Under the pieces are notes generated by a model that had not been told where the DNA came from, did no database searches, and saw nothing but the letters and a program-made list of their open reading frames with translations. Of a stretch of DNA of 31,813 nucleotides, positions 14,442 through 29,184 are shown piece after piece. A program made the position numbers and the translations under genes. The DNA comes from Flavobacterium psychrophilum. GTDB taxonomy: Bacteria > Bacteroidota > Bacteroidia > Flavobacteriales > Flavobacteriaceae. Where the stretch lies: positions 1 to 31,813 of the forward strand of contig CAMAQD010000030.1 of assembly GCA_945860385.1 (NCBI GenBank), read 5' to 3'. Numbering within the stretch: position 1 is the first letter of the stretch; each line of letters opens with the position of its first letter.

Positions 14442-16304
14442 ATGTCCGATCAAAATCAATATACCGAAGATAATATTCGGTCACTCGACTGGAAAGAACA
14501 CATCAGAATGCGTCCCGGAATGTACATCGGAAAACTCGGTGACGGTTCCTCGCCAGACGATGGTATTTACATTCTTCTCAAAGAAGTCCTGGACAACTGT
14601 ATCGATGAATTCGTTATGGGCGCAGGAAAAACCATCGAGGTAACCATCAAAGACAAAACGGTTTCCGTTCGCGATTACGGTCGCGGAATTCCCCTTGGAA
14701 AAGTAATCGATGTGGTTTCAAAAATGAATACCGGAGGTAAATACGATTCTTTGGCATTCAAGAAGTCTGTAGGATTAAATGGTGTTGGAACAAAAGCCGT
14801 GAATGCTTTGTCCAATTATTTTCGCGTGGAATCCGTTCGTGATGACAAGCAAAAAGCCGCCGAATTCTCAGGCGGAAACTTGGTTTTGGAGGAAGATATT
14901 ATAGAAACTACCAAACGAAAAGGAACCAAAGTTACTTTTATTCCCGACGAAGCGATTTTCAAAAATTACAAATACCGTTATGAATACATAATCAAAATGC
15001 TCAAAAACTATTGTTATCTCAACAATGGTTTGACTATTTTATTCAACGGTGAAAAATATTTTTCTGAAAATGGATTGAAAGATTTATTGGAAGAAACCAT
15101 CCACGCTGACGATCTCGAATACCCAATCATACATTTGAAAGGAGACGATATCGAAATCGCCTTAACGCACAGTAAAACCCAATACAGCGAGGAATATCAT
15201 TCGTTTGTAAACGGACAAAATACGACCCAAGGAGGAACACATTTGGCTGCTTATCGCGAAGCCATTGTAAAAACCATCCGGGAATTTTACAACAAGAGTT
15301 TCGAAGCTTCGGATGTACGGAAATCCATTGTGACAGCCATTAGCATCAAAGTAATGGAACCCGTTTTTGAGTCACAGACCAAAACCAAATTAGGTTCGAC
15401 CGATATGGGTTCAGAACCGGGAATGCCATCTGTTCGAACATTTGTCAATGATTTTGTAAAAAATAAATTAGACAGTTATTTGCATAAAAACCCGGCAACT
15501 TCTGAGGCACTTTTGCGCAAAATTATGCAGGCAGAAAGAGAAAGAAAAGAACTTTCCGGTATTCGAAAATTGGCGACAGACCGAGCCAAGAAATCCAATT
15601 TGCACAACAAAAAATTAAGAGATTGTCGGGCACACCTTCCTGATACCAAAAACCCAAAAAATTTAGACAGTACCCTTTTTATCACTGAGGGAGATTCCGC
15701 TTCGGGATCGATAACTAAATCTCGTGATGTTAATACACAAGCGGTTTTTAGTCTTCGTGGAAAACCACTGAATTGTTACGGAATGACCAAAAAAATTGTC
15801 TACGAAAATGAGGAATTCAATTTGTTACAAGCTGCTTTAGATATCGAAGATGGTCTTGAAAAATTGAGATATAACAACATCGTAATTGCCACCGATGCCG
15901 ATGTCGATGGAATGCACATTCGTTTGTTGTTGATTACATTTTTCTTGCAATTTTTCCCGGAATTAATCAAAGAAGGGCATTTGTATATTTTGCAAACGCC
16001 GCTATTCAGGGTTCGAAACAAGAAAGAAACCATTTATTGCTATTCTGAAGAGGAACGAAAAGCAGCCATAGAAAAATTAAAACCAAAACCGGAAATCACT
16101 CGATTTAAAGGTTTGGGTGAAATATCGCCAGACGAATTCAAGAATTTTATTGGAGAAACCATTCGATTAGATCCAATTATGATGGATAAAAACACTTCAG
16201 TAGAGCAATTGTTGTCTTTCTATATGGGAAAAAATACGCCGGACCGACAAGAATTTATTATCAAGAATTTGAAGGTGGAATTAGATACGATTGAAGCAAG
16301 TTAA
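14442..16304 (+). CDS. parE: DNA topoisomerase IV subunit B
   Basis: A 620-residue ATPase subunit of the type IIA topoisomerase that decatenates chromosomes. Seen: the GHKL ATPase with catalytic-base Glu48 and Asn52 ([11 protein letters not shown]), DYGRGIP (78-84), the ATP lid [14 protein letters not shown] (111-124), the QTK-loop lysine region (SQTKTKLGS, 311-319), and the TOPRIM domain with EGDSASG (416-422) and DADVDG (485-490), then RFKGLGE near the C-terminus. The length is that of ParE rather than the longer proteobacterial GyrB. parC lies 1.8 kb downstream on the same strand, separated by two small genes. ParE rather than GyrB is chosen because of the ParC-like partner. Confidence 0.93.
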
Positions 16305-16325: not shown

Positions 16326-17438
16326 TTGTCGAAAGAACTTCAAAATAAAATTTTATTCCAGCAGGTAGTTGAGCTATTGCAAAATGCTCGACAACAGGTT
16401 TTACGTACTGTAAATTCAACAATGGTTTGCACGTATTTCGAAATTGGAAGAATGATTGTTGAAGAAGAACAAAGCGGAAAAGACCGTGCTGAATATGGAA
16501 AACAAATTCTAAAAGGGCTTTCTCAAGATTTAACTGTGGAATTTGGGAAAGGTTTTTCTGTAGTTAATTTAGAAAATATGAGGAAGTTTTATTTAGCTTA
16601 CTCAATTTCCGAGACAGTGTCTAGGATTTTACAAATTCAAAAATCCCAGTCACTGACTGGGGAATTGAATAATAATATATCCCAGTCACTGACTGGGGTT
16701 TCTGAGGGATCAATTTCGAAATCACTGATTTCGCTTTTCAAATTGACTTGGACTCACTATGTTTTCTTAATGCGAATTGACGATGAAAAAGAAAGGCGTT
16801 TTTACGAGATAGAATCCGAAAAATACAATTGGAGTGTTCGGGAATTGAAGCGTCAATATGACTCTGCACTTTACACAAGATTGGCTTTAAGCCGCGACAA
16901 AGAAGGTGTTTTAAAACTTTCGGAACAAGGTCAGATTATAGAGAAACCGAAAGACGTAATTAAAGATCCCTATATTTTGGAATTTCTTGGATTGCCTGAA
17001 TTGCATCAATATTCTGAATCGGAATTAGAAGAAGAAATCATCAATAAATTGGAGCATTTTCTTTTAGAATTGGGTCACGGTTTTACATTTGTGGCTCGTC
17101 AACAAAGAATAACTTTCGACGACAAACATTTCCGAATTGATTTGGTTTTTTATAACCGAATTTTGAAATCTTTTGTTTTAATTGATTTGAAAATCGGAGA
17201 ACTGAAACATCAGGATTTGGGTCAAATGCAAATGTACGTCAACTATTATGATAGAGAAATGCGTTTGGAAGACGAGAACAAAACCATAGGAATTGTACTT
17301 TGCCAAAACAAAAGTGATTTGGTTGTGGAATACACTTTGCCAGAAAACAACGAGCAAATTTTTGCCAGTAAATACAAAACAGTTCTTCCGAGTAAGGAGG
17401 ATTTAATGAAATTAATTTCTAAGGAAATAATCGAATAG
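16326..17438 (+). CDS. PDDEXK nuclease, DUF1016/YhcG family
   Basis: A 370-residue protein with an N-terminal DUF1016 helical domain (residues 1-90, containing YFEIGRMIVEEEQSG and YGKQILKGLSQDL). A repeat-rich linker (95-137) and a conserved core starting LTWTHYVFLMRI follow, then a C-terminal PD-(D/E)XK nuclease fold. In that fold FRIDLVFYN supplies the metal-binding Asp and VLIDLKIG the D-x-K pair, followed by QMQMYVNYYD. Family members are proposed DNA nucleases, often near restriction or mobile loci; the substrate is unproven. The start codon is TTG (16326), 21 bp past the parE stop; no closer ATG fits. It sits inside the parE-parC interval, which suggests insertion of an accessory gene. 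Codon use is not obviously foreign. Confidence 0.85.
   Translation: MSKELQNKILFQQVVELLQNARQQVLRTVNSTMVCTYFEIGRMIVEEEQSGKDRAEYGKQILKGLSQDLTVEFGKGFSVVNLENMRKFYLAYSISETVSRILQIQKSQSLTGELNNNISQSLTGVSEGSISKSLISLFKLTWTHYVFLMRIDDEKERRFYEIESEKYNWSVRELKRQYDSALYTRLALSRDKEGVLKLSEQGQIIEKPKDVIKDPYILEFLGLPELHQYSESELEEEIINKLEHFLLELGHGFTFVARQQRITFDDKHFRIDLVFYNRILKSFVLIDLKIGELKHQDLGQMQMYVNYYDREMRLEDENKTIGIVLCQNKSDLVVEYTLPENNEQIFASKYKTVLPSKEDLMKLISKEIIE
16612..16733. repeat. Four in-frame palindromes in the nuclease linker
   Basis: Within the DUF1016 gene lie AGACAGTGTCT (16612-16622), two identical copies of CCCAGTCACTGACTGGGG (16645-16662 and 16681-16698) and CGAAATCACTGATTTCG (16717-16733). Each is a near-perfect palindrome around a CACTGA or CAGTG core, and each is translated as a similar peptide (SETVS, SQSLTG, SQSLTG, SKSLIS). 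They make up most of the variable linker at residues 95-137. Confidence 0.9.
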
Positions 17439-18094: not shown

Positions 18095-20815
18095 ATGAAA
18101 GACGACGAAGACGAAGATAACATTATCCCAAACGAAGACGAAAATAACGAAGAGTTAAATGAGTCAGCGGGCGAAGAAGGTTTTGAAGACATAAAAACTT
18201 CAAGTGGGATGCAGCATTTTTACGAAAATAACGACGAAGGGAACGATACCATAACCAAAGTTACAGGAATGTACAAAGACTGGTTTTTGGACTATGCTTC
18301 GTATGTAATTTTGGAGCGTGCCGTTCCAGCAATCGAGGATGGTTTTAAGCCCGTTCAGCGCCGAATCATGCACTCGCTTAAGGAATTGGATGATGGTCGT
18401 TACAACAAAGTGGCGAATGTCGTTGGGCATACCATGCAATATCATCCACACGGAGATCAGAGTATTGGTGATGCTATGGTGCAAATTGGTCAGAAAGAGT
18501 TGCTGATTGACTGTCAGGGAAACTGGGGAAATATCCTCACGGGCGATAGTGCCGCGGCTTCTCGTTACATTGAAGCGCGTTTGTCAAAATTTGCTTTGGA
18601 AGTTCTTTATTCTCCAAAAATTACCGATTGGGGTGTTTCTTATGATGGCCGTCGTGCCGAACCCAATAATCTTCCCGTAAAATTCCCGTTGCTTTTAGCG
18701 CAAGGTGCCGAAGGGATTGCCGTAGGACTTTCCACGAAAGTGTTGCCACACAATTTTAATGAATTGATAGATGCTTCGATAAAAATATTGAAGGGAAAAC
18801 CATTTACACTTTTTCCTGATTTTCAAACTGCAGGAATTGCGGATGTTTCCACTTATAACGATGGAATGCGTGGCGGACGTGTTCGCGTTCGTGCCAAAAT
18901 TGCCCAGTTGGACAAAAATACTTTAGTGATTACCCAAATTCCATTTTCGACCAATACGACGACTTTGATTGACAGTATTTTGAAAGCCAATGAAAAAGGG
19001 AAAATCAAAATCAAGAAAATTGAGGACAATACCGCTGCTGAGGTAGAAATATTAATTCATCTTTTCCCCGGTGTTTCGCCAGACAAAACTATTGATGCTT
19101 TGTTTGCCTTTACGGGTTGCGAAACTTCGGTTGCGCCTTTGGGTTGTGTGATTGAAGACAATAAACCTCTATTTGTTGGGGTTTCTCATATGTTGAAAAT
19201 TTCGACAGAGAGAACAGTGCAATTGCTGAAAAGCGAACTCGAAATTCAGTTGTCAGAACTGGAGGAGCAATGGCATTTCCTTTCATTGGAACGCATTTTT
19301 ATCGAAAACAAAATCTATCGTGACATTGAAGATAAAACAACTCGTGAAGATGTAATAAAAGCGGTTGATGACGGATTAAAACCATTTACTGAAAAATTAA
19401 AACGTGCAGTTACCGAAGAAGATATTCTTCGTTTGTTAGACATTCGAATTATGCGTATTTCGAAATTTGACAGTAACAAAGCGCAAGACAAAATTGAAGC
19501 TTTAGAAGGTGATATCGAACAAGTTAAATATGATTTGGAACACTTAATCGATTTTGCTATTGCCTTTTTTACCAAATTAAAAGAGAAATACGGAAAAGGT
19601 CGCGAACGCCAAACCGAACTGCGCAGTTTCGATAATATAGAAGCAACAAAAGTGGCTTTGCGAAACACAAAATTGTATGTAAATAGGGAAGAAGGCTTCA
19701 TTGGAACAGGATTAAAGAAAGACGAATATGTTACGGATTGTTCCGATATTGATGATGTGATTGTTTTTCTTCGTGATGGAAAAATGATGATTTGCAAAGT
19801 CGATGAAAAGAAATTCGTTGGAAAAGACATCATTCACATTGCCATTTTTGATAAAAGCGACAAGCGTACGATTTACAATATGATTTATCGTGATGGAAAA
19901 TCGGGACCGGCTTATATAAAACGTTTCAATGTTTCAGGAGTTACACGGGATAAATTATACGATTTAACCAATGAAACCAAAGGATCACAGATTCTCTATT
20001 TTACCTGTAATCCAAATGGGGAAGCCGAAGTGATTACCATTTTATTGCGTCAAATAGGAAGTATCAAAAAACTGAAATGGGATGTAGATTTTGCTAATAT
20101 TGCCATAAAAGGTCGTGCTTCCAAAGGGAACTTGGTCAGTAAATATCCAATCAAGAAAATCGAAATCAAGGAAAAAGGGATTTCGACATTGAAACCAAGA
20201 AAAATTTGGTTTGACGATACTGTTCAAAGATTGAACGTTGACGCCAGAGGAGAATTGCTTGGAGAATTCAGACCCAACGACAAGATTTTGGTAATTTCCC
20301 AAACAGGAAAATTAAAAGTCATCACGCCGGAATTATCCACGCATTTCGATGAAGATATGGTAGTTTTGGAAAAATGGCATCCGAAGAAACCGGTTTCCGC
20401 CATTTATTATGATGGTGAAAAAGAACGGTATTATATCAAACGTTTCTTGGTAGAAACCGAAGGAAAAGAAGAAACCTTTATTACGGAACATCCCAAATCA
20501 CAACTGGAAATCGTCTCGACCGATTATCGTCCGATGGCGGAACTGGTTTTCACGAAAGTGAAAGGCGTTCAAAAAGAAAATCAAACGGTTGATATTGAGA
20601 ATTTTATTTCCGTGAAAGGTTTTAAAGCACTCGGAAATCAATTGACTACTGATAAATTAAAGCAAGTTAATTTGCTTGAACCATTGCCTTACGAAGAACC
20701 GGAAGAAGTGGTTCCTGAAGAACTCGAAGTGCAGGGCGAGACGGAAGTTGATATTTCTGATGATGATAGTGATGATGTTCAACTCAATGAAGACGGACAA
20801 ATCACTTTATTTTAA
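18095..20815 (+). CDS. parC: DNA topoisomerase IV subunit A
   Basis: A 906-residue DNA-cleaving subunit of topoisomerase IV, forming a heterotetramer with ParE. Seen: an acidic N-terminal extension (about 55 residues), DYASYVILERAVP (66-78), DGFKPVQRRIMHSL (82-95), the quinolone-determining helix YHPHGDQSIGDAM (116-128), and the catalytic tyrosine in AASRYIEARLS (Tyr158). A coiled segment spans about residues 380-520, and a C-terminal DNA-wrapping domain covers about 560-840. The tail is strongly acidic (DISDDDSDD) and ends GQITLF. The position equal to E. coli ParC Ser80 is Gln122. It is longer than E. coli ParC because of both acidic tails. Its terminator follows directly. Confidence 0.93.
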   Translation: MKDDEDEDNIIPNEDENNEELNESAGEEGFEDIKTSSGMQHFYENNDEGNDTITKVTGMYKDWFLDYASYVILERAVPAIEDGFKPVQRRIMHSLKELDDGRYNKVANVVGHTMQYHPHGDQSIGDAMVQIGQKELLIDCQGNWGNILTGDSAAASRYIEARLSKFALEVLYSPKITDWGVSYDGRRAEPNNLPVKFPLLLAQGAEGIAVGLSTKVLPHNFNELIDASIKILKGKPFTLFPDFQTAGIADVSTYNDGMRGGRVRVRAKIAQLDKNTLVITQIPFSTNTTTLIDSILKANEKGKIKIKKIEDNTAAEVEILIHLFPGVSPDKTIDALFAFTGCETSVAPLGCVIEDNKPLFVGVSHMLKISTERTVQLLKSELEIQLSELEEQWHFLSLERIFIENKIYRDIEDKTTREDVIKAVDDGLKPFTEKLKRAVTEEDILRLLDIRIMRISKFDSNKAQDKIEALEGDIEQVKYDLEHLIDFAIAFFTKLKEKYGKGRERQTELRSFDNIEATKVALRNTKLYVNREEGFIGTGLKKDEYVTDCSDIDDVIVFLRDGKMMICKVDEKKFVGKDIIHIAIFDKSDKRTIYNMIYRDGKSGPAYIKRFNVSGVTRDKLYDLTNETKGSQILYFTCNPNGEAEVITILLRQIGSIKKLKWDVDFANIAIKGRASKGNLVSKYPIKKIEIKEKGISTLKPRKIWFDDTVQRLNVDARGELLGEFRPNDKILVISQTGKLKVITPELSTHFDEDMVVLEKWHPKKPVSAIYYDGEKERYYIKRFLVETEGKEETFITEHPKSQLEIVSTDYRPMAELVFTKVKGVQKENQTVDIENFISVKGFKALGNQLTTDKLKQVNLLEPLPYEEPEEVVPEELEVQGETEVDISDDDSDDVQLNEDGQITLF

Positions 20816-23254: not shown

Positions 23255-24268
23255 TTATTTTAAAAAATTATTTATTGTTTTGGAAAAGTCCGATCCCATA
23301 ATATTTTTGATGGTGTATTTTTTCGCCTCTGATTTTTTTAATTGGTGTGACCACGAAACTCTATTTTCAGGCTGAAATCCCGGTCCATTACATTTAAATT
23401 CAGCGTAAAAAGCTGTTTTTTCAGCTTCGGGTTTTGACCAATTGTGCCAACCTTCGGGTTTTATATGGTTGCCCATTTCGCAGTTTATAAAAACGGTTTT
23501 GGCATAAATTCGCCAAGGTCTTCCCAGATACACTTCTGATGCTTTCGGGGCTGCCGTTATTTTGCAATTTTTGAAAACATATCCAAATGCTACGTTTTGG
23601 GGTGTTGAAGCGGCTGTAATATAGGAATTGCTTTTGCTGTGAATAGTACAATTTTCGAATAAAACAGTGGCATCTCCAAAAATAAAATCAGTAGTTCCTT
23701 CGATATAACAATCCTTAAAATAGTTCTTGGTTCCTTCACCCGATGTATAAAGAGTGTCCTGATTACCTAATAGAGAACAGTTGCTAATTATGACTCTATT
23801 TGCATTTACGTTCAACGCAACCGCCTGACCCACCTCGCCTGAGGTGTTTTTAATGGTTAGGTTTTTTGCAATAAAATCATTGCCTTCTATCAAAACTGTG
23901 TAGGTATGAAATGTACTATTCCTGCCGATATTTATTTTATTGAAATAGTCGTCATAGCTGATGATTGTATTTTCTCGGCTTTCGCCAATTAAAGAAATGT
24001 AAGGATTCCAAGAGTGGATTTTTACTTTTTCAAAATAAACTCCGTTCTTTATAAAAATAGTAATTCTTTCGGATGGAAATGCTTTTGCTGCGTTTATAGC
24101 TTCTTGAATTGTGGTAAAATCACCACTCCCATTTTTGTCAACAACGATGTTAAATTCGTCTTTTGGCGCGGTATTTTTCTTTGGAATTGCCTTTTCAGTT
24201 ACAACTTCAGTTTTTTTTTCCAGGCTGGATATTTTTTCAATACCTCTTTTGGTTCGTTGGTGTACCAA
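23255..24268 (-). CDS. Pectin methylesterase module, CE8, probably the frameshifted 3' half of a PL10-CE8 gene
   Basis: A CE8 pectinesterase of about 300 residues that demethylates homogalacturonan. Seen in numbering from the first ATG (24268): GSGDFTTIQEAI (47-58), GQAVALNV with Gln148, GNQDTLYT with Gln170 and acid/base Asp171, DFIFGDATV with nucleophile Asp194, and LGRPWR with Arg250 and Trp252. There is no signal peptide. The first about 17 codons are the end of the PL10 gene read in another frame, and the next about 20 (KKTEVVTEKAIPKKN) look like an interdomain linker. A run of nine A marks the frame change, and one extra A would join it to the secreted PL10 enzyme. A separate cytosolic CE8 would make little sense, so a fusion, slippage product or sequencing error is favoured. 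Confidence 0.85.
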   Translation of the reverse strand: MVHQRTKRGIEKISSLEKKTEVVTEKAIPKKNTAPKDEFNIVVDKNGSGDFTTIQEAINAAKAFPSERITIFIKNGVYFEKVKIHSWNPYISLIGESRENTIISYDDYFNKINIGRNSTFHTYTVLIEGNDFIAKNLTIKNTSGEVGQAVALNVNANRVIISNCSLLGNQDTLYTSGEGTKNYFKDCYIEGTTDFIFGDATVLFENCTIHSKSNSYITAASTPQNVAFGYVFKNCKITAAPKASEVYLGRPWRIYAKTVFINCEMGNHIKPEGWHNWSKPEAEKTAFYAEFKCNGPGFQPENRVSWSHQLKKSEAKKYTIKNIMGSDFSKTINNFLK

Positions 24269-25284
24269 GCGTATCCCGTTCTTCGTTCTTGTCCGATTTC
24301 TGCAATTGACGATTTCTTGATTCCATCACGGTCACAAAAGAATGGGGCATTGTTTTCTAGTTCCATAAACCGAGCCCAAAGAGGAGTTGCATTGGTATCT
24401 TTCACCATCACTTTTTCGACAATTTTGCTATTAGGAACAGGAACGCGTTCTTCTCTAAGGTCTGTAATTTTTGTTTTTTCGAACCAAGTTACCGCACTGT
24501 TTACTGCTGTAATTATTTCTGGTGACGGGTTTTCGATTGACATTAAAAGCAAAACGATTTTAGCAGATTCTTTCCCGCTTAAAGAAGCTAATTCATAAGC
24601 GCGTGCATTTGCCGGAAGCAAGGTCACTTCGTCATGTTGTGCACACCAAGCAGTGAGAACGCCATTTTGTTTGTATTGTGTTTTTAAAATACAGTCGATT
24701 CCTTTGTCGAAAGCGATTTTGGCTTTTTCTAAAGTGGCTTCAGGAGGTTTTATAGAATAGTAATCCGTTTTTTCTACGCACTCTTTTAATACATTTAATA
24801 TGTTGACCATTGAATCATCATTATAAGTGATGTGTGTGTAATATCCCTTTTTAAGAGGATAAAATTGGGGCCAACCTCCATTTTCATATTGTGCATTCAA
24901 CAAATAATTTAAACCAGCTAAAAAGGCTGTTTTATATCTTTCGTCCGGAACTTGGCCATACATTTTTGCTAAAAACAACATTTCTTGGCAGGTTGCACCA
25001 TTATCAGTTGTCACTTCTTTAGTGTTGGATTTTAGGGTAATTAATTTTTGCTTTTCTTCCTCATTCAAAGGAGTTTGCATTTGAATGTTTTTTGGCCATC
25101 CGCCAACATTGCGTTGGTATAACAATACATTTTCAGCAATTTGTTTTGCTTCATTGGAAGCAAACCAAGCACCTTCCTTTTCTTTAATTATTGAAGCCCA
25201 TTTTTGATTGTGAACTTGAGCCTGAATACTTGTGTTTACTAGAAATAGTAAAGCAAATAAAATTATAGTTTTTAATTTTTTCAT
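24199..25284 (-). CDS. pelA: Pectate lyase, PL10 family
   Basis: A 361-residue secreted (alpha/alpha)-toroid lyase acting on polygalacturonate with calcium. The start at 25284 (MKKLKTIILF) is chosen because it begins a clear signal peptide (1-22, ending QAQ); upstream in-frame ATG codons would add non-signal residues overlapping GH43. Seen: NVGGWPKN (59-66), TTDNGATCQEMLFLA (92-106), NGGWPQFYP (135-143), ITYNDDSM (152-159), AWCAQHD (212-218), ELASLSGKES (231-240), NNAPFFCDRDGI (311-322) and RRTGYAWYTNEP (334-345), the last holding the family's conserved arginine region. The stop comes after KKYPAWKKKLKL, inside the A-run frame change before CE8. The start is 13 bp after the GH43 stop. Confidence 0.92.
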   Translation of the reverse strand: MKKLKTIILFALLFLVNTSIQAQVHNQKWASIIKEKEGAWFASNEAKQIAENVLLYQRNVGGWPKNIQMQTPLNEEEKQKLITLKSNTKEVTTDNGATCQEMLFLAKMYGQVPDERYKTAFLAGLNYLLNAQYENGGWPQFYPLKKGYYTHITYNDDSMVNILNVLKECVEKTDYYSIKPPEATLEKAKIAFDKGIDCILKTQYKQNGVLTAWCAQHDEVTLLPANARAYELASLSGKESAKIVLLLMSIENPSPEIITAVNSAVTWFEKTKITDLREERVPVPNSKIVEKVMVKDTNATPLWARFMELENNAPFFCDRDGIKKSSIAEIGQERRTGYAWYTNEPKEVLKKYPAWKKKLKL

Positions 25285-28215: not shown

Positions 28216-29184
28216 CTAAAGCTTATTCTTTTTGTTTAAAACATCTAATTTTTCATCTAAATATTTGATGAATTCTTCTTTAGATTTTACACCTCCAATT
28301 TCTTGTTCCCAAGCTCCTAAAAGGTAAAAAGAATTTGATTTAGTACTTGGTTTGAAAACCAATAAATGGTCAAATTCAGCATCCTCCAAAGATTCTATAG
28401 TGTTGATTTCATAAAAAATAGCCATCCCTAAATTGTCTGGAACCAAGGATTGTTTTCCGTAAGTGGCTATGTATCCCCATTTTTTGTTGGCACTTTCTTT
28501 TTTAAGGAATTCCGTGTTTTTTTGTTTTACAATTCCGGTGCAAATTCCTTTGATTTCCTTTGAAGCTTGAAAGTTGTGTTTAGTGTAAATTTGGTCCGGT
28601 TTGATACTAAGTTCAGAGGTAAAATCAATTTTATCATCAGCTGTTTTCCATCCGTAATAATTGATTTTCACACCTGATTCATTGCTTTTATTTTGAACCA
28701 TGGCGATGGTAGAATCTACAGCATAAAAGTGTAATTTTTCGTTATTTAGGTAACGGTCGATAGAACCAATTCCGATTCCTTTTCCAGCTTTTAGAATATC
28801 TGATCCCCAATCGCTCATTTCGTGATACGAATCGAAGCCATCTAATCCAACTTTGGGTAAAACCATCGCTTCGGTTTTTTTTCCGAAAATGTCAATGGCA
28901 TTTCTCCAATCGAGATATAAGCGATAGCCTATTTTATTGCTTTCCCAACCAGGACCTTCGTAACGAATGTCAAAAGAATGATCCGTATGTTCAGGAGCCA
29001 ATTTTAGACTTTGAACATTTTTAAAAGTACCACCGATATATTTGCGACCTTCCCATTTGCCTCCTTCTTTAACAGATATTTCGGCATAGGTTTTTGAGTT
29101 TTTACTTGTTGTTTTATTGTTTTGTGCCTGACAAGAGGCTAAACTCAATAGGAGTAAGGCTGCAATTATTTTAGTTGTTTTCAT
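28216..29184 (-). CDS. DUF4861 family lipoprotein
   Basis: A 322-residue exported protein with lipobox SLASC (Cys18) followed by a Thr/Ser/Lys-rich spacer. The mature part contains GGKWEGRKYIGGTFKNVQ, DIRYEGPGWESNKIGYRLYL and YHEMSDWGSDILKAGKGIG, and is rich in Trp, Tyr and Gly like a beta-sandwich sugar-binding or sugar-cleaving fold. This pattern fits DUF4861, a family found in Bacteroidota loci for uronate-containing polysaccharides. No established activity can be stated for this member; a lyase, an esterase accessory or a binding role are all possible. Its start overlaps the esterase stop by 14 bp, so translation is coupled. It sits between the esterase and GH105 in the pectin operon. Confidence 0.8.
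   Translation of the reverse strand: MKTTKIIAALLLLSLASCQAQNNKTTSKNSKTYAEISVKEGGKWEGRKYIGGTFKNVQSLKLAPEHTDHSFDIRYEGPGWESNKIGYRLYLDWRNAIDIFGKKTEAMVLPKVGLDGFDSYHEMSDWGSDILKAGKGIGIGSIDRYLNNEKLHFYAVDSTIAMVQNKSNESGVKINYYGWKTADDKIDFTSELSIKPDQIYTKHNFQASKEIKGICTGIVKQKNTEFLKKESANKKWGYIATYGKQSLVPDNLGMAIFYEINTIESLEDAEFDHLLVFKPSTKSNSFYLLGAWEQEIGGVKSKEEFIKYLDEKLDVLNKKNKL

Follow-up and report, generated by a model that had tools for sequence, protein, structure and literature searches.

The window, a stretch of 31,813 nucleotides from Flavobacterium psychrophilum, carries on its minus strand a pectin cluster comprising genes for GH28, a BD-FAE esterase, a DUF4861 protein, GH88, GH43, PL10, CE8, a GDSL esterase and PL1. 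The junction between the PL10 and CE8 genes displays the following features:

24199..25284, minus strand: PL10 pectate lyase, from ATG at 25284 to TAA at 24199, with a complete PF09492 domain (solved relatives 1r76 and 1gxm)
24211..24219, minus strand: putative slippery run A9 (T9 on the plus strand), from which the -1 frame enters CE8
24199..24201, minus strand: zero-frame TAA stop, 9 nt past A9, which would release the lyase alone
24155..24210, minus strand: Lys/Pro-rich linker TEVVTEKAIPKKNTAPKDE, in the CE8 frame
23255..24210, minus strand: complete CE8 pectin methylesterase module without signal peptide, read in -1 (solved relatives 1xg2, 1gq8 and 1qjv)

The PL10 gene ends with TGG-A9-CTG-AAG-TTG-TAA and the T9 is located at 24211-24219 of the plus strand, both as originally predicted, and across the A9 the CE8 frame is -1 relative to that of PL10. 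The zero-frame, short product has the C-terminus ..YPAWKKKLKL*, while both domains are complete (PF09492 positions 1-292/292 in PL10 and PF01095 positions 1-296/298 in CE8), in agreement with the claim that the slipped frame holds an entire CE8 module. The CE8 frame is open from the called start, TTG at 24268, to 23255; this TTG belongs to PL10 sequence read out of frame and CE8 has no signal peptide, as had been noticed, and within the linker (24155..24210) no ATG, GTG or TTG is found in the CE8 frame between the run and the catalytic core. The N-terminus of PL10, by contrast with that of CE8, is a signal peptide (MKKLKTIILFALLFLVNTSIQAQ), and a signal-peptide- or lipoprotein-like N-terminus is likewise present in the GH28, BD-FAE esterase, DUF4861, GH88, GH43, GDSL and PL1 proteins, which bears out the assertion that the other pectin enzymes are exported; all these N-termini were judged by eye and not by a predictor. 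Five runs of nine or more As exist in the window, and the junction A9 is the only one situated on the sense strand of a listed ORF of at least 120 aa. The DUF4861 protein of the cluster, with its lipoprotein-like N-terminus, is encoded at 28216-29184 (minus strand). Elsewhere in the window, a gene for a YhcG-like PDDEXK nuclease (DUF1016; 16326-17438, plus strand) is flanked by a gyrB/parE-like gene (14442-16304) and a gyrA/parC-like gene (18095-20815).

Relatives of this locus were collected from three sources: a contig search, of which the best 80 of 590 confirmed stretches were taken; 398 genomes from the genus of locus L002 (F. franklandianum LB3P56, an environmental isolate), 127 of which matched at 1e-90 and were represented by the best match per genome down to an E-value of about 1e-123 (118 of the 127 matched genomes); and 397 genomes from the family of locus L026, where all 29 genomes matching at 1e-118 were used. 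The resulting 227 loci, including that of the window, were reduced to 148 distinct ones by removal of 40 exact duplicates and of 39 loci without PL10 directly upstream of CE8. In 127 of these 148 loci PL10 and CE8 form an uninterrupted fusion in one frame, so that the hidden fusion suggested for the window finds its counterpart in the relatives, and in 20 the frame is broken with CE8 in -1, a proportion which does not represent prevalence because a broken gene served as query. The remaining locus, L127, was excluded from the fused and broken counts: it scored +1 on account of a one-base homopolymer difference inside PL10, and becomes -1 if measured from the part of PL10 adjoining its A10. L127 is the sister of the F. 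hydatis-like group and, besides the one-base difference in a T-run of PL10, displays other one-base differences around the linker run, which are perhaps assembly errors. A class-level search gave 11 matches in 395 genomes, and the new loci found there (L277-L283) stand outside the frame survey.

All 20 broken loci possess an uninterrupted run of A9 (eight loci) or A10 (12 loci) at the junction, and in all of them the zero-frame stop of the lyase is found between +1 and +16 nt past the run. In the fused loci the run is A4 in three, A5 in 19, A6 in 30, A7 in 11, A8 in 15, A9 in 23, A10 in 26, and never longer. Breaks are thus seen in 0/26 loci with A7 or A8 against 20/69 with A9 or A10 (Fisher p 0.001, for loci that are not independent and leaving out L127); since indel mutations also occur at long runs, such a threshold is partly expected. 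The breaks occupy differing linker positions and codon phases: TGG followed by A9 or A10 in the clade of the window, L007 and L012; GAA AAA AAA AAG in L026 (Mariniflexile), L036, L222 and the F. hydatis group; and GTA AAA AAA AAA in L037 (Lutibacter) and L187. In a tree of PL10 plus CE8, from which L127 was left out, nine changes between fused and broken states were counted; as drawn there are nine separate broken groups, or eight if L004 joins the clade of the window, in a quick tree that leaves 35 of its 145 inner branches open and does not distinguish breaks from reversals. Within the clade of the window the run is A9 and the zero-frame TAA lies 9 nt past it in 8/8 loci. Homopolymers are error-prone, and the L127 deposit does hold other one-base homopolymer differences; nevertheless, breaks of one type, always at an A-run of this kind, recur at 20/148 loci from many species and assemblies, which makes the sequencing error considered in the original prediction very unlikely, and error or gene decay taken together hardly credible, also in view of the CE8 median dN/dS of 0.06-0.09 detailed below.

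Gene callers annotate CE8 in these loci as a separate gene. Among the 120 listed CE8 database matches (7998 scored), 36 start with xEKK[TNK], which is expected if the Trp codon TGG and the A-run are read out of frame, and four start inside out-of-frame PL10; P0100 and P0108 have both Pfam domains in a single frame. These protein matches alone suggest that the break may be common in Flavobacterium and in metagenomes, masked by gene callers. If the annotation were correct, a cytoplasmic CE8 would be translated from an NTG that shares nucleotides with the Trp codon, or else through coupled re-initiation. Five of the 20 broken loci do offer a TTG or GTG ahead of the run end, read in the frame of CE8, namely the window (the TTG lying 58 nt before the run end), L002, L004, L007 and L012, but in the other 15 the stretch from the preceding in-frame stop up to the end of the run is devoid of ATG, GTG and TTG. 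Past the run, none of the 20 has a start codon in that frame before the core is reached, and a possible start at the very edge of the core is seen in L007, L026 and L037. An own signal peptide on CE8 at this site, the observation that would have refuted the original prediction, is absent from 20/20 broken loci, whereas at least 31 of the 39 CE8 genes lacking a PL10 neighbour have a signal-peptide-like start according to a crude rule, which missed L015, L173 and L186, signal-peptide-like by eye. Since, in addition, 127 relatives encode CE8 behind PL10 as one-frame fusions, we regard a separate cytoplasmic CE8 as improbable.

The CE8 of the broken clades is under purifying selection comparable to that acting on PL10 and on fused relatives. 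Its median dN/dS is 0.09 at a median dS of 1.2 in the eight loci of the window clade (27 of 28 pairs computable), 0.058 at a dS of 0.85 in the five loci of the hydatis group (10 pairs) and 0.067 in the single pair of a third broken clade; the corresponding values are 0.096 (window clade) and 0.057 (hydatis group) for PL10, and 0.069 and 0.065 for CE8 in two fused groups. The A-run itself is intact in 8/8, 5/5 and 2/2 members of the three broken clades. Estimated from the all-Lys columns of these genes, the probability of such retention was 0.18, 0.30 and 0.26, respectively, together about 0.014, with clade members not being independent.

Runs of this length also recall contingency loci, in which replication slippage would toggle CE8 between cells, given that A9 and A10 are expected to mutate easily and that a single A separates the fused A10 of L005 from the broken A9 of its relatives at that site; L004 and L005 also differ in frame state. 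Against this, a single state prevails clade-wide (A9 in 8/8 and A10 in 5/5 loci), and the frame states at loci with nine or more As stand at 49:20:0 and not at one third each (L127 left out; loci not independent). Phase variation is consequently a poor candidate, to which we attach little probability. The locus L005 (F. cellulosilyticum), with its in-frame A10 at the site of the out-of-frame A9 of the window, constitutes a one-base natural pair.

Outside the linker, long A-runs are scarce in coding DNA. The 380 neighbouring ORFs (457 kb) contain eight A9 and no A10, and two Flavobacterium genomes, sampled at fixed steps, yield three A9 and no A10 in 314 kb of coding DNA, a scarcity that makes the A9 of the junction more than a chance occurrence. 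Likewise, the PL10 and CE8 domains of the fused genes hold five runs of nine or more As against 41 expected from codon usage, an avoidance expected if such runs are slippery in these cells. KKK is written as nine As at 38/51 linker positions, against 3/65 in the neighbouring ORFs and 0/24 in the two Flavobacterium genomes. It follows that A9 is apparently avoided in the coding DNA of these genomes but not in the PL10-CE8 linker, a difference most simply read as a low cost of slipping at that point, where the lyase is already complete. Fused linkers contain 49 runs of A9 or A10, with 49.0 expected in 500 recodings by codon usage, and these runs look tolerated rather than selected: positive selection for them was rejected, avoidance being merely absent. 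An immediate -1-frame stop (within 5 nt) follows the run in 36/49 fused genes with A9 or A10 against 12/78 with shorter runs; the notion of a programmed stop after the slip was not retained, the difference being non-significant once relatedness was considered (8.0:2.5 pairs, median p 0.18, with an 8-nt limit). Among the 127 fused linkers no run reaches A11 or more, although 2.6 are expected (13 of 500 recodings likewise had none), which hints weakly at a ceiling on run length.

Taken with the anatomy of the junction, these observations are best accounted for by a slippage site which has arisen repeatedly in PL10-CE8 pectinases and is kept within clades. We hypothesize that PL10 and CE8 would be one gene joined by a slippery poly-A linker, of which the exported lyase would be the usual product, most readings ending at the TAA just past the run. 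In a minority, RNA polymerase would insert an extra A in the transcript, or the ribosome, with lower likelihood, would slip by -1, and translation would continue into CE8 to yield a single exported lyase-methylesterase. Both PL10 alone and PL10-CE8 are probably the outcome of slippage at the run, for which RNA polymerase is a likelier agent than the ribosome. That it occurs, at what rate, during transcription, and with both products being of importance, is what we infer from sequence. In evolutionary terms, an in-frame fusion may have tolerated A9 or A10 in its linker, since a slip would still leave a complete lyase; the loss of one base would then have broken the frame, with slippage still giving CE8, and the run would have been kept thereafter. 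The switch by slippage contemplated in the original prediction is hence the best reading for the broken loci, the slip itself and the choice of RNA polymerase over ribosome being its presumptive part.

The fusion might instead be made by -1 ribosomal frameshifting at A_AAA_AAA or A_AAA_AAG, of the type known from E. coli dnaX and IS elements. The direction of the break is -1 in 20/20 loci, which fits RNA polymerase or ribosome alike, and a zero-frame heptamer of one of these two types is contained in every A9 or A10 run; furthermore, many E. coli heptamers are described in the available part of one study as shifting above background without stimulators, at low rates (PMC4066793). However, six or seven As would suffice for the ribosome and no broken locus has a run shorter than nine. 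A Shine-Dalgarno-like element (AGGA or GGAG within 25 nt) is present in two of the 20 broken loci and missing in 18, and downstream structure, pseudoknots aside, was not found in them (mean z -0.23, with z below -2 in 1/20). By analogy, a run that is never shorter than nine, with neither element nor structure, would fit transcriptional slippage of the tssM1 kind better than a stimulated ribosomal shift, and ribosomal frameshifting appears unlikely as the source of the fusion, though the least so of the alternatives considered.

In tssM1 of Citrobacter rodentium, according to the accessible portion of the report, As are added at an A11 run at a frequency of 20-25% without Shine-Dalgarno element or structure, and both forms of the product are required (PMC4256274). 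The likeness to the window lies in a poly-A shortly before the stop, an extra A in the mRNA (predicted for the window) that leads to a longer second product, and no such elements nearby; the difference, as far as that portion goes, is that there the slip was demonstrated, at A11 and in a component of a secretion machine, whereas PL10-CE8 would combine two enzymes of one pathway with A9 or A10 and a predicted slip (PMC4256274). In Thermus thermophilus dnaX, as treated in the part of PMC1088944 at hand, the A9 is in frame and slipped mRNAs stop near the run, giving a shorter product; a short slipped product of this type would be expected from fused PL10-CE8 genes with A9 or A10, and the gene of the window is the reverse case, in which the short product comes from the unslipped reading. 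Shigella mxiE (with a U-run) and IS elements (A9) share overlapping ORFs, a run and the need of a slip for the long product but, unlike PL10-CE8, are not secreted enzymes; that part of the article describes no family which, like PL10-CE8, unites in-frame with out-of-frame members (PMC1088944). The slip predicted for PL10-CE8 has a counterpart, judging from the portion of PMC5009743 available, in genes of endosymbionts, whose broken frames are corrected in some transcripts at long A-runs of AT-rich genomes, although endosymbiont genomes are reduced while those with PL10-CE8 are larger (about 2-7 Mb) and otherwise avoid coding A9.

Slippage at an A-run is therefore a known kind of system; no earlier report of it in the PL10-CE8 enzyme family turned up among the papers searched. 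In a literature collection with few subscription papers, no title or abstract among the matches listed joins pectate lyase or CE8 with slippage, the combination of "pectate lyase" and "transcriptional slippage" gave no match, and no case of transcriptional slippage in these bacteria is among the matches listed. The terms pectate, pectin and Flavobacteri are absent from the main text of PMC3711429 and from the available part of PMC5009743. In the accessible sections, PMC11278836 names PL10 and CE8 as gene families without a frameshift, and PMC8710568, to which no weight was given here, deals with prfB frameshifting in F. johnsoniae.

If correct, recoding would occur naturally and recurrently in a carbohydrate-active enzyme, whose genes current annotation splits into a lyase and an esterase that lacks an export signal. 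In-frame and out-of-frame orthologues existing side by side would further allow a direct test of how slippage passes from tolerated noise to indispensable. More tentatively, and with the odds in our view somewhat against it, the poly-A linker could act family-wide as an expression divider, giving mostly the double enzyme when in frame and mostly the lyase when in -1, with about nine one-base switches adjusting the proportions of lyase and lyase-methylesterase to the pectin on which the bacteria live.

Other candidate genes were sought with the requirement of 100 open codons before and after a run of nine or more As: among 197 distinct sites in the collected loci, only PL10-CE8 junctions emerged. 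From a whole-genome scan of G331 for A10, nine distinct plus-strand sites were inspected, none of them in an ORF of at least 80 aa. Falling under the 100-codon limit, and found by eye, is L097, which has no PL10; here a 51-codon ORF with a signal-peptide-like start (MKKIKIIILFTLLITWHTKTFSQ..) meets its stop 14 nt past an A9, and CE8 follows behind in -1, the slip junction lying in the 170 nt before the CE8 core. Judging from its sequence, this CE8 would still need the slip to reach its signal peptide, and L097 is the best natural test case for the slip.
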